Origin: Citrus sinensis
Lineage: Eukaryota; Streptophyta; Magnoliopsida; Sapindales; Rutaceae
Direction: 5' to 3'
Assembly: GCF_022201045.2 (NCBI RefSeq)
Contig: NC_068559.1
Location: forward strand, 3,942,501-4,006,500
Length of the DNA: 64,000 nucleotides
Notes under the pieces: generated by a model
What the model was told of the DNA's origin: nothing
The model's database searches: none
Seen by the model: the letters and a program-made list of their open reading frames with translations, nothing else
Part shown: positions 14,421-19,619 of the stretch, piece after piece
How the letters are laid out: each line of letters starts with the position of its first letter
Position numbering within the stretch: position 1 is the stretch's first letter
Made by a program: the position numbers and the translations under genes

Positions 14421-14687
14421 TTACGCAGCAATTGAGTTGCATACACAAAAGAGGCCACCAGGGCCGTCGACACACTGAGCACCGTTGAATCCACCCCCTA
14501 ACGCACCCTGACAAGCTTGGGTACAGGTATCTTGAGTGCACTGAACCGGTTGATCGTCAGCAATATCGACCAAAACACGATCTGGGATGAGCTTAGGATG
14601 AACAACGGCTTCTGCATTCAAGAATGTCAAGGCCATCAAAACAAAGATCAAAGTGATCATCAATGGCAAATATGCTCTTTGTTTCAT
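14421..14687 (-). CDS. Secreted six-cysteine peptide (defensin-like), copy 1
   Basis: Single-exon frame of 88 aa. Residues 1 to about 27 are a signal peptide: a basic MKQR start, a hydrophobic run rich in Leu, Ile and Met, then LNAEA. A short acidic pro-like stretch leads to the cysteine domain with spacing C-x4-C-x3-C-x12-C-x8-C-x1-C. The C-x3-C plus C-x-C pair is the hallmark of cysteine-stabilised alpha-beta (defensin-like) folds, so an extracellular defence or signalling peptide is likely. The family name is inferred, not matched to a known gene. A TATA box lies 110 bp upstream. The neighbour at 15260-15475 has the same spacing in the opposite orientation. Confidence 0.75.
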   Translation of the reverse strand: MKQRAYLPLMITLIFVLMALTFLNAEAVVHPKLIPDRVLVDIADDQPVQCTQDTCTQACQGALGGGFNGAQCVDGPGGLFCVCNSIAA

Positions 14688-14796
14688 TATCTCCCTAATA
14701 AGATAAAAGCCTTTTTCTTTTTCTTTTTTCTTTTTTTTTTAACAACTTCCTGAAAGAATTGGATTACCTGTATGCAAATTTTCTCATGGTTTGGGG

Positions 14797-14804: not shown

Positions 14805-15157
14805 GAGATTGGAATGCTCTAAATATGTCAAAAAAATCTTGTTGTAATCCATGCAGTAATATCATTTGAAATTGGATTTGCAATATTGGTATATCATCCT
14901 GAATTGGCAACTCATGCACATTGAAGACCAAGATCTTGAATCATTTTTTATATTTGCAACTCTGTTAATACATGTAAATGATAGAGATTATGAGTCAGTA
15001 AAATCTTCAAAGTAATTTCTAGATTTCTTTCCATGAAAACCATTGATAACTAAGAATCATAGAGAATTATTTTAAAGGGAAAGAAACAACCAGAAAATTA
15101 ATGGTAATAACTTTGATTTTAGAGCTAAAATAGAGCCGTCTTTAGAAATTCCTCTGC

Positions 15158-15164
15158 TATAAAA
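15158..15164 (+). promoter_or_regulatory. TATA box of cysteine-rich peptide copy 2
   Basis: TATAAAA. Transcription would start near 15190, which leaves almost no leader for the ATG at 15191 but about 70 nt for the ATG at 15260. This supports the shorter protein. Confidence 0.55.
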
Positions 15165-15259
15165 GCCCTATTCATGTAATTATAAAATTCGTGACAAAAG
15201 CAAAGCAAAGCAAAAAATTTCTATTCAAAAGAAACTTGACAAAAGCATTTTTGTCTCCA

Positions 15260-15475
15260 ATGGAAGGAAGGGTGACACTAATCTTAGCTTTGGTGGTCTT
15301 GAGTTTCATGGCTATTAATGGACCAGATGTAGCAGAGGCTTTTCGAATTGTCATCGAATGTAGCCAGCCTCAATGCACGCAGACTTGCCAAAATGCGTAC
15401 AAGGAAAAACTTTTATCGGCTTTCTGTAAGAAGACGGATTATGGAAACCTTTGCGTTTGTGTTCATAAACCTTAA
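15260..15475 (+). CDS. Secreted six-cysteine peptide (defensin-like), copy 2
   Basis: A 71-aa peptide from the ATG at 15260. The frame is open back to 15191, but that start would put a lysine-rich stretch before the signal sequence and sit right at the predicted transcript start. Residues 1 to about 27 (MEGR, then a Leu/Val/Ile-rich core ending VAEA) are a signal peptide. The cysteine domain has spacing C-x4-C-x3-C-x12-C-x8-C-x1-C, identical to copy 1. Shared residues around the motif are CTQ-CQ and CVC. The two genes are therefore an inverted, divergently transcribed duplicate pair with much changed sequence between cysteines. Expected to be extracellular; precise function unknown. Confidence 0.75.
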   Translation: MEGRVTLILALVVLSFMAINGPDVAEAFRIVIECSQPQCTQTCQNAYKEKLLSAFCKKTDYGNLCVCVHKP

Positions 15476-18212
15476 AAGTACTGGATGGCTTATCATGGCC
15501 ATGGCTCATGATATTACTGTAACCTCAATAACAAAAGCAAATAAAACCTTTTTCATTACATACCCTCTTTTCTGTTCTTATTGATCATGTGCTTTCGAGT
15601 TAATATGTTTTTCAACTACAGTAAATCAGAATTCACATACATATATGATCAGATCAATGTTACAAGTACTACTAATATCCATAATTCCATATTATATAAT
15701 AAAATGCTTTTGGCAACTACAATAGTCTATATTTCTCTTGATAAAGAAGGTAAAGACCAAAATCTGAAGGTGGTTACTCGCTATATTTTAGTGTGCAGAT
15801 GTGTATAAGATTTCTGTTAGGACTAAAAGGAATGTGATGAATAGCGAATTGTAGCAGCATGAAGATGAAGAAGTTACATCTGTACAGAGAAAAGAAGTTA
15901 AATTTAGCAGAGTACTAAACTTGTCTCTGAAAATAATGAAGGGAAAACAGAGAACATAATAAAGGTTTACCTGGTACTGGCTTTACAATTGATTCAGTGA
16001 CCTGCTGGGATTTGTGGTTGCTAATTTCTAGTAAGCTCTGTGAAATAAAAGCCGATTTCCCAAGGTAAGACCTTGTGAGCTTCTTGACCACTGTTATTTC
16101 TTGAGTACTGCAAAAGAGCTTGAATTTGGTCAGTGTCTGCCGTGGAAATTTTAATCAGATAAGCATAAATGATGGGGACACATACCTTGGACTGAGGAGG
16201 TTGCTGGCACTAATTTTTCCTGTATAAAGAGCATTAGTCCTGGTAGCATTTGTCAATGTTTGCAACATGAACAATCTTTTCTTGTTGGGCATGGAGTTCC
16301 TTGCCATGATCACATTTGCAGGAACATTTCCAAATCTGATTTTCAATAAACAGAACTACTTTAGAATCAGATTTTGATATAGAGAATATATCACACTGTA
16401 CATTACATTCTAATTTTTTTATTGTTCTTTTCATATACACAATACATGTTGCCAATCATTAACTTGAGTATATGATAGTATAGTCACACTAGTTCAACAT
16501 ATAAGAAATATTAAAACAGAAATCAATTCTTAACTCAGTGTTGAATTGCAGGTACTTACGAGCAAGATCCAGGATAGCCATTGATTTCTCTGCAACCACC
16601 TTGCGGACAAAGATACCTGAGCATTTCGCAAACCAAAAAAAATAATAATAATAATAATCGAACTTCTTTTTTAAGAAAATTAAATTGAAATGGTTGGAAA
16701 TTGAAGCAGTGTATTTTTCACCTACATGAAGTCTCTGACTGATTTTGACGACCAAGACTGGTTCTGAGGCCCCTCTTTGGAGTACAACAATGCCGTATCA
16801 CCTCTCACAAATGCAATATCTCCCAATTCCTCAACCAAGCACCTAAATGCTCCCGAATCTCCAAAATACAAACTATTCGAATGGCAAGAACCATTTTCAA
16901 TGCCACAGCCACCGCACATTCCCGTTCCTTCAAATTCTCCCGGGGCACAAACCTCAGAGAAAAAGCTTGAAGCAATTTCGATGCGGCTTATTTTTCCAGA
17001 ATCAAATGATGGCGTTGATTCCTTGATATGGTTAACGGGATAGTTCCAGCCAGCTGCTGTGGAGTAACTTCCATGGCAAGATTTATGTCCCTTGAAAACC
17101 ATCAAATTGATGCCTCCATTTTCTTGGCAAACCTTTCTGTTTATAACTGCAACAGCATCATAGCTTTGAGCATGGTCACAGTAGACTTCATTTGCAATGG
17201 CTTTCATAGAGTAATTGAGAAATGCCGTGTAAGCTAGCCCTGCTTCTAGATTTATTATATCTGCTTCCCCTTTTCTTGCTGAATCTAAACACTCTTGTGC
17301 TGTGTCTCTTCTGACACTGCAAAGAAATTAAATTGTTTCAATATTATTTTAAAATCTAAAAAAAATAAAAAAAATATTTTATTTTGTTCAAATTACAATT
17401 GTTTCCGAATCTCTCGTGATACGCCTAGACTTAAGTGTCAATAATATAGCGTTCAAGAGTGTTTGTCACATGAGCAATTAAAGGGTACAGTTTTCTCCCA
17501 AAACAGTATTAAGAAAAAAAGAGAGAAAATTACCATTTCCACGTTTAATCTTCAGATTGGCTGATGATGCTGACGAGATACTCACAATCCTCGTACTGAT
17601 CCCTGACAGCACACCATTTGATGGACGCCGCTGATCCTTCCTCGTCATCACCCACCTCACCACTTGGCACACCGTGATCACCAAATTCCTCCCTTCCTTC
17701 CTCCACGGTTAATGGCGCCGGCGCCGGGGATGCATTCGGCACTGACGGTAGGGGAGGCTAGCGTTGTGCGGATGTTAAACTCGTGGGTGATGCCGGAGTT
17801 GGAGATGGCGCGAAAACTGAAACAGAAATGCCTTTTTAGATTTTAAAATATTAGGAGTAGCTTTTAATCTGCGGCTAATTAAAATTTTAATAAACATAAG
17901 GGACTTAATTGCAATTTTATCAATTTACGCGTTTTTTACATTTGACCCCTTACCTTTTAAATTATTATATTTATGTTAAAGTTTTCTCTATTGTGTCTTT
18001 GTATTGTTGACTCTTATCAATTTCACTTATTTTATGTCATAGTGCAAGCAAACTTATACACTTCTGACTCTATGGTACCTACTAAACCAAATTTTGATCT
18101 CATTGTTATTTGCATTTACCTTCATTTATTAAATTCTTATTATCTATGACTTTCAAATAATATATAAGAATAAATAAACTCGTGACAAGAATTCAGGTAT
18201 TCAATAAAATAT

Positions 18213-18215
<3 letters not shown>

Positions 18216-18256
<41 letters not shown>
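18216..18256. repeat. (TA)n microsatellite
   Basis: About 20 uninterrupted TA units within the first intron of the transferrin-like gene. Confidence 0.95.
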
Positions 18257-18257
<1 letters not shown>

Positions 18258-18349
18258 TCCAAGAGCACTAAAATTTTGAAAAAACTGAATTACTAGTTAA
18301 AAGTTGAAACACAATTTGACTCACCGGATCTCTCACTGTCTGAAGCTAC

Positions 18350-18434
18350 TTTAATGATGGTGCATGCGCTGGAGAAAAGTGTTGAACGGACAAGGAACTG
18401 GAGTTGGGTTCCGAGGCTGGCGATGGTGCAAAAC
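18350..18434 (-). other. Possible alternative or relic exon of the transferrin-like gene
   Basis: After an acceptor AG (18435-18436), the minus strand encodes FAPSPASEPNS in phase with exon 1. It resembles FAPSPTPASPTS encoded just upstream of exon 2 (about 17750-17805). Including it and using the GT at 18348-18349 would shift the frame, and reading on meets TAG. It may be a duplicated linker exon that is now skipped. Confidence 0.35.
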
Positions 18435-18616
18435 CTGAGACATTATTAAGAGGGGTGAATTTGCAAAGTTTAGGGAAAACAAGAATCAGAAGCAGAATAA
18501 ATAAAACATACCCTGAATTGGCCAGATAAAAGCGAGCAAGTGAAGAAGAAGAGCAGTTGCTGTTAAGATCTGCATATGGGGATGTTGTGTGTGTATTTTG
18601 AATTGTGATGGTGATG

Positions 18617-18719: not shown

Positions 18720-19619
18720 TAGGGATGGCAATGGGGAGGGGAGGGGAGAGGACTAATCTCCCCATACCCATCCCCGATATTTTGCATATGTCTCCGTCCC
18801 CTCCCCGTCCCCGTCAGAATTACTTGAGAGAATCTCCATCCCCTCCCCGAATAATAACAGGGGATCCCCGAGGGTCCTCGGTCCCCGAATAACTAATAGT
18901 CTAATACATTATTTTTTATTTTTTATTTTAAATTAATCATATTAAAATAAAAAAAATTCAGATAAAAATAAAGTTCAAAATATATCTTACATTAATATTG
19001 ATCCATTACAAAGTCACATTCAAAATATAAATTATTAAAATAATTATAAAACAATGAAAATAATATAAGTAAAGTAACTTATAAGTGCAAATATTAATAA
19101 CTGTATAATATAATCACAATGTAAAATAAACTCATATTGTTATTGTAAGCTCGTAACTAACTTTGACAGCACATTAAGGCCTCCAATGTGTTTGGATGAA
19201 GTTTGTTACGGTGTGGGCTCACAACTCTACCACCGGTGCTAAAAGCTGATTCAGAAGCAACTGTTGTAATTGGAATTGCCAAAATATCTCTAGCAATTCG
19301 AGCTAATGTAGGATACCTATTAGCATTTAATAATATAAATATTTTGATATTTATTATTTTTAACAATATTTATAATTTTGTTATTTATTTATTAGTAATT
19401 TTAAAAATAAAAATAAAATTAAAAATTCAAATGGGGAAATGGGTAGGGGATGGGGATTTCACCTCATCCCCGTCCCCTCCCCGAATAAAAAATTGGGTAA
19501 AAAATTTTTCCCGTCCCCTCCCCGAATAAAAAATTGGGTATAAAATTATCCCCATACCCTCTCCGAATGGGGAAAATCTCCGAGGGTATCCGTCCCCGTG
19601 GGGATTTTTGCCATCCCTA
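18720..19619. mobile_element. hAT element, deletion derivative with hATC fragment
   Basis: A 900-bp element with ends TAGGGATGGCAA and TTGCCATCCCTA (perfect 12-bp inverted repeat) and the perfect 8-bp target duplication AGAGCGTG (18712-18719, 19620-19627). Sub-terminal CCCCGTCCCC repeats occur at both ends. On the minus strand, about 19157-19330 encodes the C-terminal dimerisation (hATC) motif of a hAT transposase: YPTLARIARDILAIP, then ASESAFSTGGRVV. The rest of the transposase is gone, so the element needs an outside source. Confidence 0.9.
19157..19366 (-). pseudogene. hAT transposase C-terminal fragment
   Basis: About 50 residues match the hATC dimerisation domain, including the diagnostic SxSAFSxGGRxV run. 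The frame then meets its own stop. Upstream there is only AT-rich non-coding sequence, so no zinc finger or catalytic core is present. Confidence 0.85.

Follow-up and report, generated by a model that had tools for sequence, protein, structure and literature searches.

A single-lobe transferrin-like gene of Citrus sinensis with replaced iron and carbonate residues and an in-frame stop codon

Melanotransferrin and lactoferrin, the vertebrate proteins to which the gene described here is most similar among the best 60 of 90 solved matches, are members of the transferrin family, and the former carries a membrane (GPI) anchor. Other relatives have acquired different partners: saxiphilin binds saxitoxin and another relative binds carbonic anhydrase, both being two-lobe animal proteins. 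Among algae, the transferrin-like protein of Dunaliella salina and the phytotransferrin of diatoms are presented as iron-related proteins in excerpts of PMC5404504 and PMC7972479, with the diatom protein described as convergently evolved (PMC7972479). Flowering plants are said, in an excerpt of PMC9343624, to have no transferrin receptors, and two transferrin genes of Theobroma cacao have been attributed to transfer from insects (Bai et al. 2016, as cited in PMC8401529). Land-plant transferrins are therefore already in print, at least through that citation, and the class is known; the remark in an initial annotation of this locus that they are rarely discussed has to be qualified in this respect. 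Among the matches listed in the literature search, in the parts of the sources that it covered, no study dealt with what land-plant transferrins do or with their ligand residues.

Here we describe a gene in a window of 64,000 nucleotides from Citrus sinensis (NC_068559.1, positions 3,942,501 to 4,006,500). As a transferrin-family member in an angiosperm it is comparable with the cacao genes as cited; the algal proteins are set beside it on their published description as iron-related. The reading we favour, with some confidence but well short of certainty, is that a transferrin-family lobe first lost its Fe-carbonate chemistry and later gained a nonsense codon. A plant single-lobe variant with a hydrophobic tail and a replaced site deserves some attention; the gene present here is probably inactive.

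Gene structure and family membership

The exon model was based on homology, reading phase and splice signals, and is predicted from DNA alone (Table 1). Its seven exons total 1299 nt, their phases match across all six introns, and each of these introns was GT-AG in a splice-site check, confirming the coordinates, minus strand and exon number originally given. The hydrophobic stretch of exon 1, which ends at the donor AGG|gtatgt, has a Kyte-Doolittle peak of 2.36 at residues 3-17, while exon 2 is delimited by the acceptor tcccctaccgtcag|TGC at 17741 and the donor ATG|gtaatt. The C-terminal tail, scoring 2.06 at residues 415-429, probably resembles a GPI-signal or membrane tail, and five N-glycosylation sequons are present in the predicted product. 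The signal-like start, Pro/acidic linker, one lobe and hydrophobic C-terminal tail proposed earlier were all recovered in the rebuilt model. Shuffling the coding sequence (n = 2000) gave a mean of 26 in-frame stops and a minimum of 11, against one in the real model, a control that favours the model in that its exons had been picked to fit.

Table 1. Positions within the window of the transferrin-like gene, its codons of interest and adjoining features; codons in exons 3 and 5 were counted by hand from the exon coordinates
Feature	Position	Strand	Description
Transferrin-like gene	15788..18575	-	seven exons; secreted-looking single transferrin lobe
Exon 1	18512..18575	-	ATG and signal-peptide-like hydrophobic stretch MQILTATALLLHLLAFIWPIQ
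Exon 2	17534..17741	-	Pro/acidic linker and lobe start (SIKWCAVRDQYEDC...); carries in-frame stop
Codon 87	17547-17545	-	TAA, within exon 2
Exon 3	16726..17316	-	bulk of lobe; 197-residue product
Glu115	17246-17244	-	exon 3
Cys137 and Cys154	17180-17127	-	extra cysteines
Tyr143	17162-17160	-	exon 3
Gly173	17072-17070	-	exon 3
Thr177	17060-17058	-	exon 3
Asp244	16859-16857	-	exon 3
Exon 4	16560..16616	-	model and splice sites
Exon 5	16186..16335	-	
Asn314	16316-16314	-	exon 5; place of the His ligand
Exon 6	15971..16107	-	C-terminal part of lobe
Exon 7	15788..15879	-	Ser-rich stretch, hydrophobic tail LFITFLLVLTEILYT, terminal TAA
Linker-like candidate exon	18325-18434	-	FAPSPASEP...; own in-frame TAG; unused
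Second FAPSP stretch	17800-17816	-	in-frame TAG downstream
Cys-rich ORF	14424-14738	-	small, secreted-looking; adjoins gene
Cys-rich ORF	15146-15472	+	small, secreted-looking; adjoins gene
hAT transposase dimerisation fragment	19157-19366	-	PF05699, E 5.5e-22; upstream of gene

Two other arrangements at the 5' end were rejected, one using the linker-like candidate exon, with its own TAG, and the other starting exon 2 at 17816, which adds an in-frame TAG besides the TAA. As the acceptor at 17741 drops this TAG and also reproduces the residue numbering of the initial annotation, only the TAA is counted against the gene. The candidate exon and the stretch just upstream of exon 2 both open with FAPSP codons after acceptor-like sites. 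Duplication of a linker exon was considered but gained no support: the DNA motif common to both occurs twice in the window, yet 9 of 100 shuffles reached that count, and none of the seven direct-repeat families in 15700-18600 joined the two FAPSP stretches. A scan of the region upstream of the gene with a model of bacterial promoters and terminators, not designed for plant signals, returned no promoter-like and one terminator-like site.

Searched with an X at the stop, the full model matched the Pfam Transferrin profile (PF00405) from residue 62 at 140.3 bits (E 1.1e-40; cut-off 20.3), covering profile positions 1-265 of 328; the region past this match, for example SYLGKSAFISQSLLEI, may be the end of the lobe, which it resembles by eye. 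Exons 3-7 alone scored 122.9 bits (E 2.1e-35) over profile positions 32-265, such that the addition of exons 1-2 both raised the score to 140.3 bits and moved the profile start from 32 to 1. The top solved match among the best 60 of 90 was the melanotransferrin chain 6xr0_M (E 6.9e-58 with X at the stop, and 1.1e-52 when exons 1-2 were left out). On these sequence comparisons the homology to transferrins is far beyond chance, and the family assignment made in the initial annotation is borne out by the profile search. Only one Pfam stretch was matched across the whole model, from start codon to terminal stop, indicating a single lobe. Using the exon-3 product (197 residues) as a query, four pattern matches in viral contigs and 17 in prokaryote genome contigs were obtained, none of which was confirmed as a relative, and structure prediction of this product without an alignment gave a low mean pLDDT of 34.5.

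Melanotransferrin was matched in two lobes against one in the query, whose hydrophobic tail may correspond to the GPI anchor of that protein; the melanotransferrin N-lobe is identical to the query at 77 of 220 aligned residues over exons 3-5. The query also matched chains 8d6g and 3mc2, saxiphilin and the inhibitor of carbonic anhydrase, transferrin folds serving other ligands or partners; these are two-lobe proteins, whereas the query has a single lobe.

The insect-to-cacao transfer of two transferrin genes cited above raises the alternative that the gene came from an animal (an insect) through horizontal transfer, or else is a contaminant, to which we give little credence. The top solved matches (best 60 of 90) are the vertebrate proteins melanotransferrin and lactoferrin, but invertebrate transferrins are few among solved chains, so that this ranking says little about origin. 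Contamination is opposed by the six introns, by the location of the locus, 3.96 Mb along one of the 11 contigs of the 300-Mb genome, and by the 39 Kunitz_legume matches in the same genome. Horizontal transfer is compatible with the sequential loss of iron chemistry and reading frame that we favour.

The iron and carbonate site

Exons 3-5 were aligned with the N- and C-lobes of melanotransferrin and lactoferrin. Invariant columns were defined on the three of these whose site is canonical, namely the melanotransferrin N-lobe and the two lactoferrin lobes. The query retains 47 of the 81 invariant columns. Only one of the four iron ligands of the Asp-Tyr-Tyr-His set is kept, as Tyr143, with Glu115 at the Asp63 position and Asp244 and Asn314 at the equivalents of Tyr188 and His249; neither carbonate residue is retained, Gly173 standing for Thr120 and Thr177 for Arg124. 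All six residue numbers in the initial annotation were reproduced exactly through the 17741 acceptor, and the alignment supports its claim that the iron and anion residues have been replaced. Retention at the ligand columns (1/6) is lower than at the other invariant columns (46/75; Fisher one-sided 0.044), a marginal p-value from a test picked after the replacements were seen and using three references, two of them from lactoferrin. Invariant columns away from the ligands have also been lost by the query, in 29 of 75 cases.

By contrast with this site, the cysteine framework and core blocks are kept, in agreement with the earlier description: all nine cysteines invariant in the three reference lobes over exons 3-5 are retained, and Cys65, Cys74, Cys91 and Cys100 each lie opposite a melanotransferrin cysteine. 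Two extra cysteines, Cys137 and Cys154, are found on either side of the Tyr143 strand. None of the four lobes in the alignment has a cysteine at either column, although the lactoferrin C-lobe has one in a nearby insertion; the pair could form an additional disulphide.

Alteration of the site is not confined to the query. Of the six canonical residues, all of which are kept by the melanotransferrin N-lobe against one in the query, the melanotransferrin C-lobe has Ser, Ala and Ser in place of Asp, Thr and Arg while keeping both Tyr and the His; in the query, by comparison with that lobe, one Tyr and the His are gone as well. That intact alleles or relatives of the gene are working iron transferrins, using Glu115, Tyr143 and Asp244 without carbonate, would be consistent with the two carboxylates and one Tyr left at the site and with the mildness of a change from Asp to Glu, a conservative replacement that counts against our main reading. 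The equivalents of Tyr188, His249, Thr120 and Arg124 have all gone, and the CHGSYSTAAGW stretch contains no Arg, making such a role highly improbable.

On the reading that we prefer, the gene is a plant member of the transferrin family, with a lobe that would be secreted, a linker and a hydrophobic tail that is probably membrane- or GPI-anchoring. The cysteine framework and core blocks have been preserved in the lobe, but the Asp-Tyr-Tyr-His set has been lost together with the Thr/Arg carbonate pocket. Its intact ancestor would most likely have been an apoplastic lobe held at the cell surface that did not rely on ferric iron and carbonate. The cleft still offers Glu, Tyr, Asp and Asn as oxygen donors and may have served a different ligand; the initial annotation suggested such a ligand or, alternatively, a part in apoplastic signalling. 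Given that flowering plants are said to have no transferrin receptors, such a lobe without iron ligands would represent a repurposed fold, co-opted for another task, as saxiphilin has been.

The in-frame stop codon

Codon 87 is a TAA between SIKWCAVRDQYEDC...SQSED and TWKC, and so between Cys74 and Cys91, which we take to be the equivalents of serotransferrin Cys19 and Cys39. The profile match is extended to its first position by exons 1-2, and the alignment with melanotransferrin starts just ahead of the first cysteine; as both sides of the TAA align to transferrin lobes, the stop lies inside the domain. The canonical reading frame is broken, and the gene as modelled encodes no full-length protein in this assembly. 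The claim of the initial annotation that the gene encodes the protein finds no support, the TAA having been overlooked.

The remaining 431 sense codons are open, and together with six GT-AG introns this is as expected of a working gene, which counts against our main reading, as does the fact that several cryptic donors would take the stop out in frame. A single stop can, moreover, be an assembly or base-calling error, which counts against inactivation. These same features, a lone stop, GT-AG introns and a frame open elsewhere, make a functional gene, whose TAA either stems from an assembly error or is bypassed by alternative splicing, a serious though less likely alternative. To examine bypass, GT donors between the 60th base of exon 2 and the stop were paired with AG acceptors lying between the usual start of exon 3 and a point approximately 110 bases inside that exon. 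Many combinations gave an open frame, but each loses Cys91, since every such donor precedes the stop. The mildest, in which the cryptic donor TGA|GTATCT is joined to the normal exon-3 acceptor, restores the frame by dropping 17 codons including the stop, at the cost of Cys91 and leaving Cys74 without a partner. The regular exon-2 donor, ATG|gtaatt, by contrast matches the phase and supplies the conserved Cys91.

The age of any inactivation can be estimated from the number of stops. With substitutions only and an assumed transition/transversion ratio, neutral decay is expected to produce 0.9 stops at a divergence of 0.02 per site and 4.5 at 0.10, where the probability of at most one is 0.059. 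As the frame is open apart from codon 87, any inactivation is recent, or else the stop reflects a null allele or an error in the assembly. The lone stop suggests that the locus most likely represents either a gene that lost its function recently or a null allele, the nonsense codon having perhaps arisen in this species or accession.

The presence of the stop would also be in keeping with the replaced residues being the product of neutral decay after inactivation. Decay that leaves a single stop in an open frame would be unlikely to alter five of six key residues. Every one of the nine invariant cysteines is retained, as are 46 of the 75 other invariant columns, and this origin is very doubtful. 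As the loss of five of the six key residues with the framework kept is hard to square with young decay, loss of the iron site probably took place before selection on the protein was relaxed. The order of events, location, ligand and loss of function proposed here are inferred.

More tentatively, there may be a flowering-plant lineage of single-lobe, surface-anchored transferrin relatives in which a Glu-Tyr-Asp-Asn cleft took the place of iron-carbonate chemistry and accommodates some other metal or a small ligand, this locus being in the course of loss or kept by alternative splicing. Were the orthologues of related plants intact and to carry the same replacements, a non-iron role would apply to the family, possibly being lost here.

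Copy number and surroundings

The transferrin-like gene appears to be present once. The Pfam Transferrin profile found one locus in the 300-Mb genome (1/1 candidates) and the exon 3-7 protein gave five matches, all of them exons of that locus, with the best candidates being scored in each case. A search with the DNA of the gene recovered the gene and, on the opposite strand, 40 bases of its intronic AT repeat. No processed copy or intact sister was seen in this genome by these searches, which score best candidates and skip simple repeats.

Six of the nine neighbouring ORFs have no Pfam match, and the neighbourhood is uninformative as to where the gene came from. Two small, secreted-looking Cys-rich ORFs adjoining the gene share a like cysteine pattern, appear defensin-like by eye and have one weak Pfam match each, both under the curated cut-off. 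Upstream of the gene lies a fragment of a hAT transposase dimerisation domain. Elsewhere in the genome, at C3:24.13-24.85 Mb, a Kunitz/miraculin-like cluster holds 32 of the 39 Kunitz_legume matches; 14 of the 39 have internal stops, by a hand count in which some matches are pieces of one gene. The one of these 39 that was examined is closest to the solved chain 5yh4, a miraculin-like protein.
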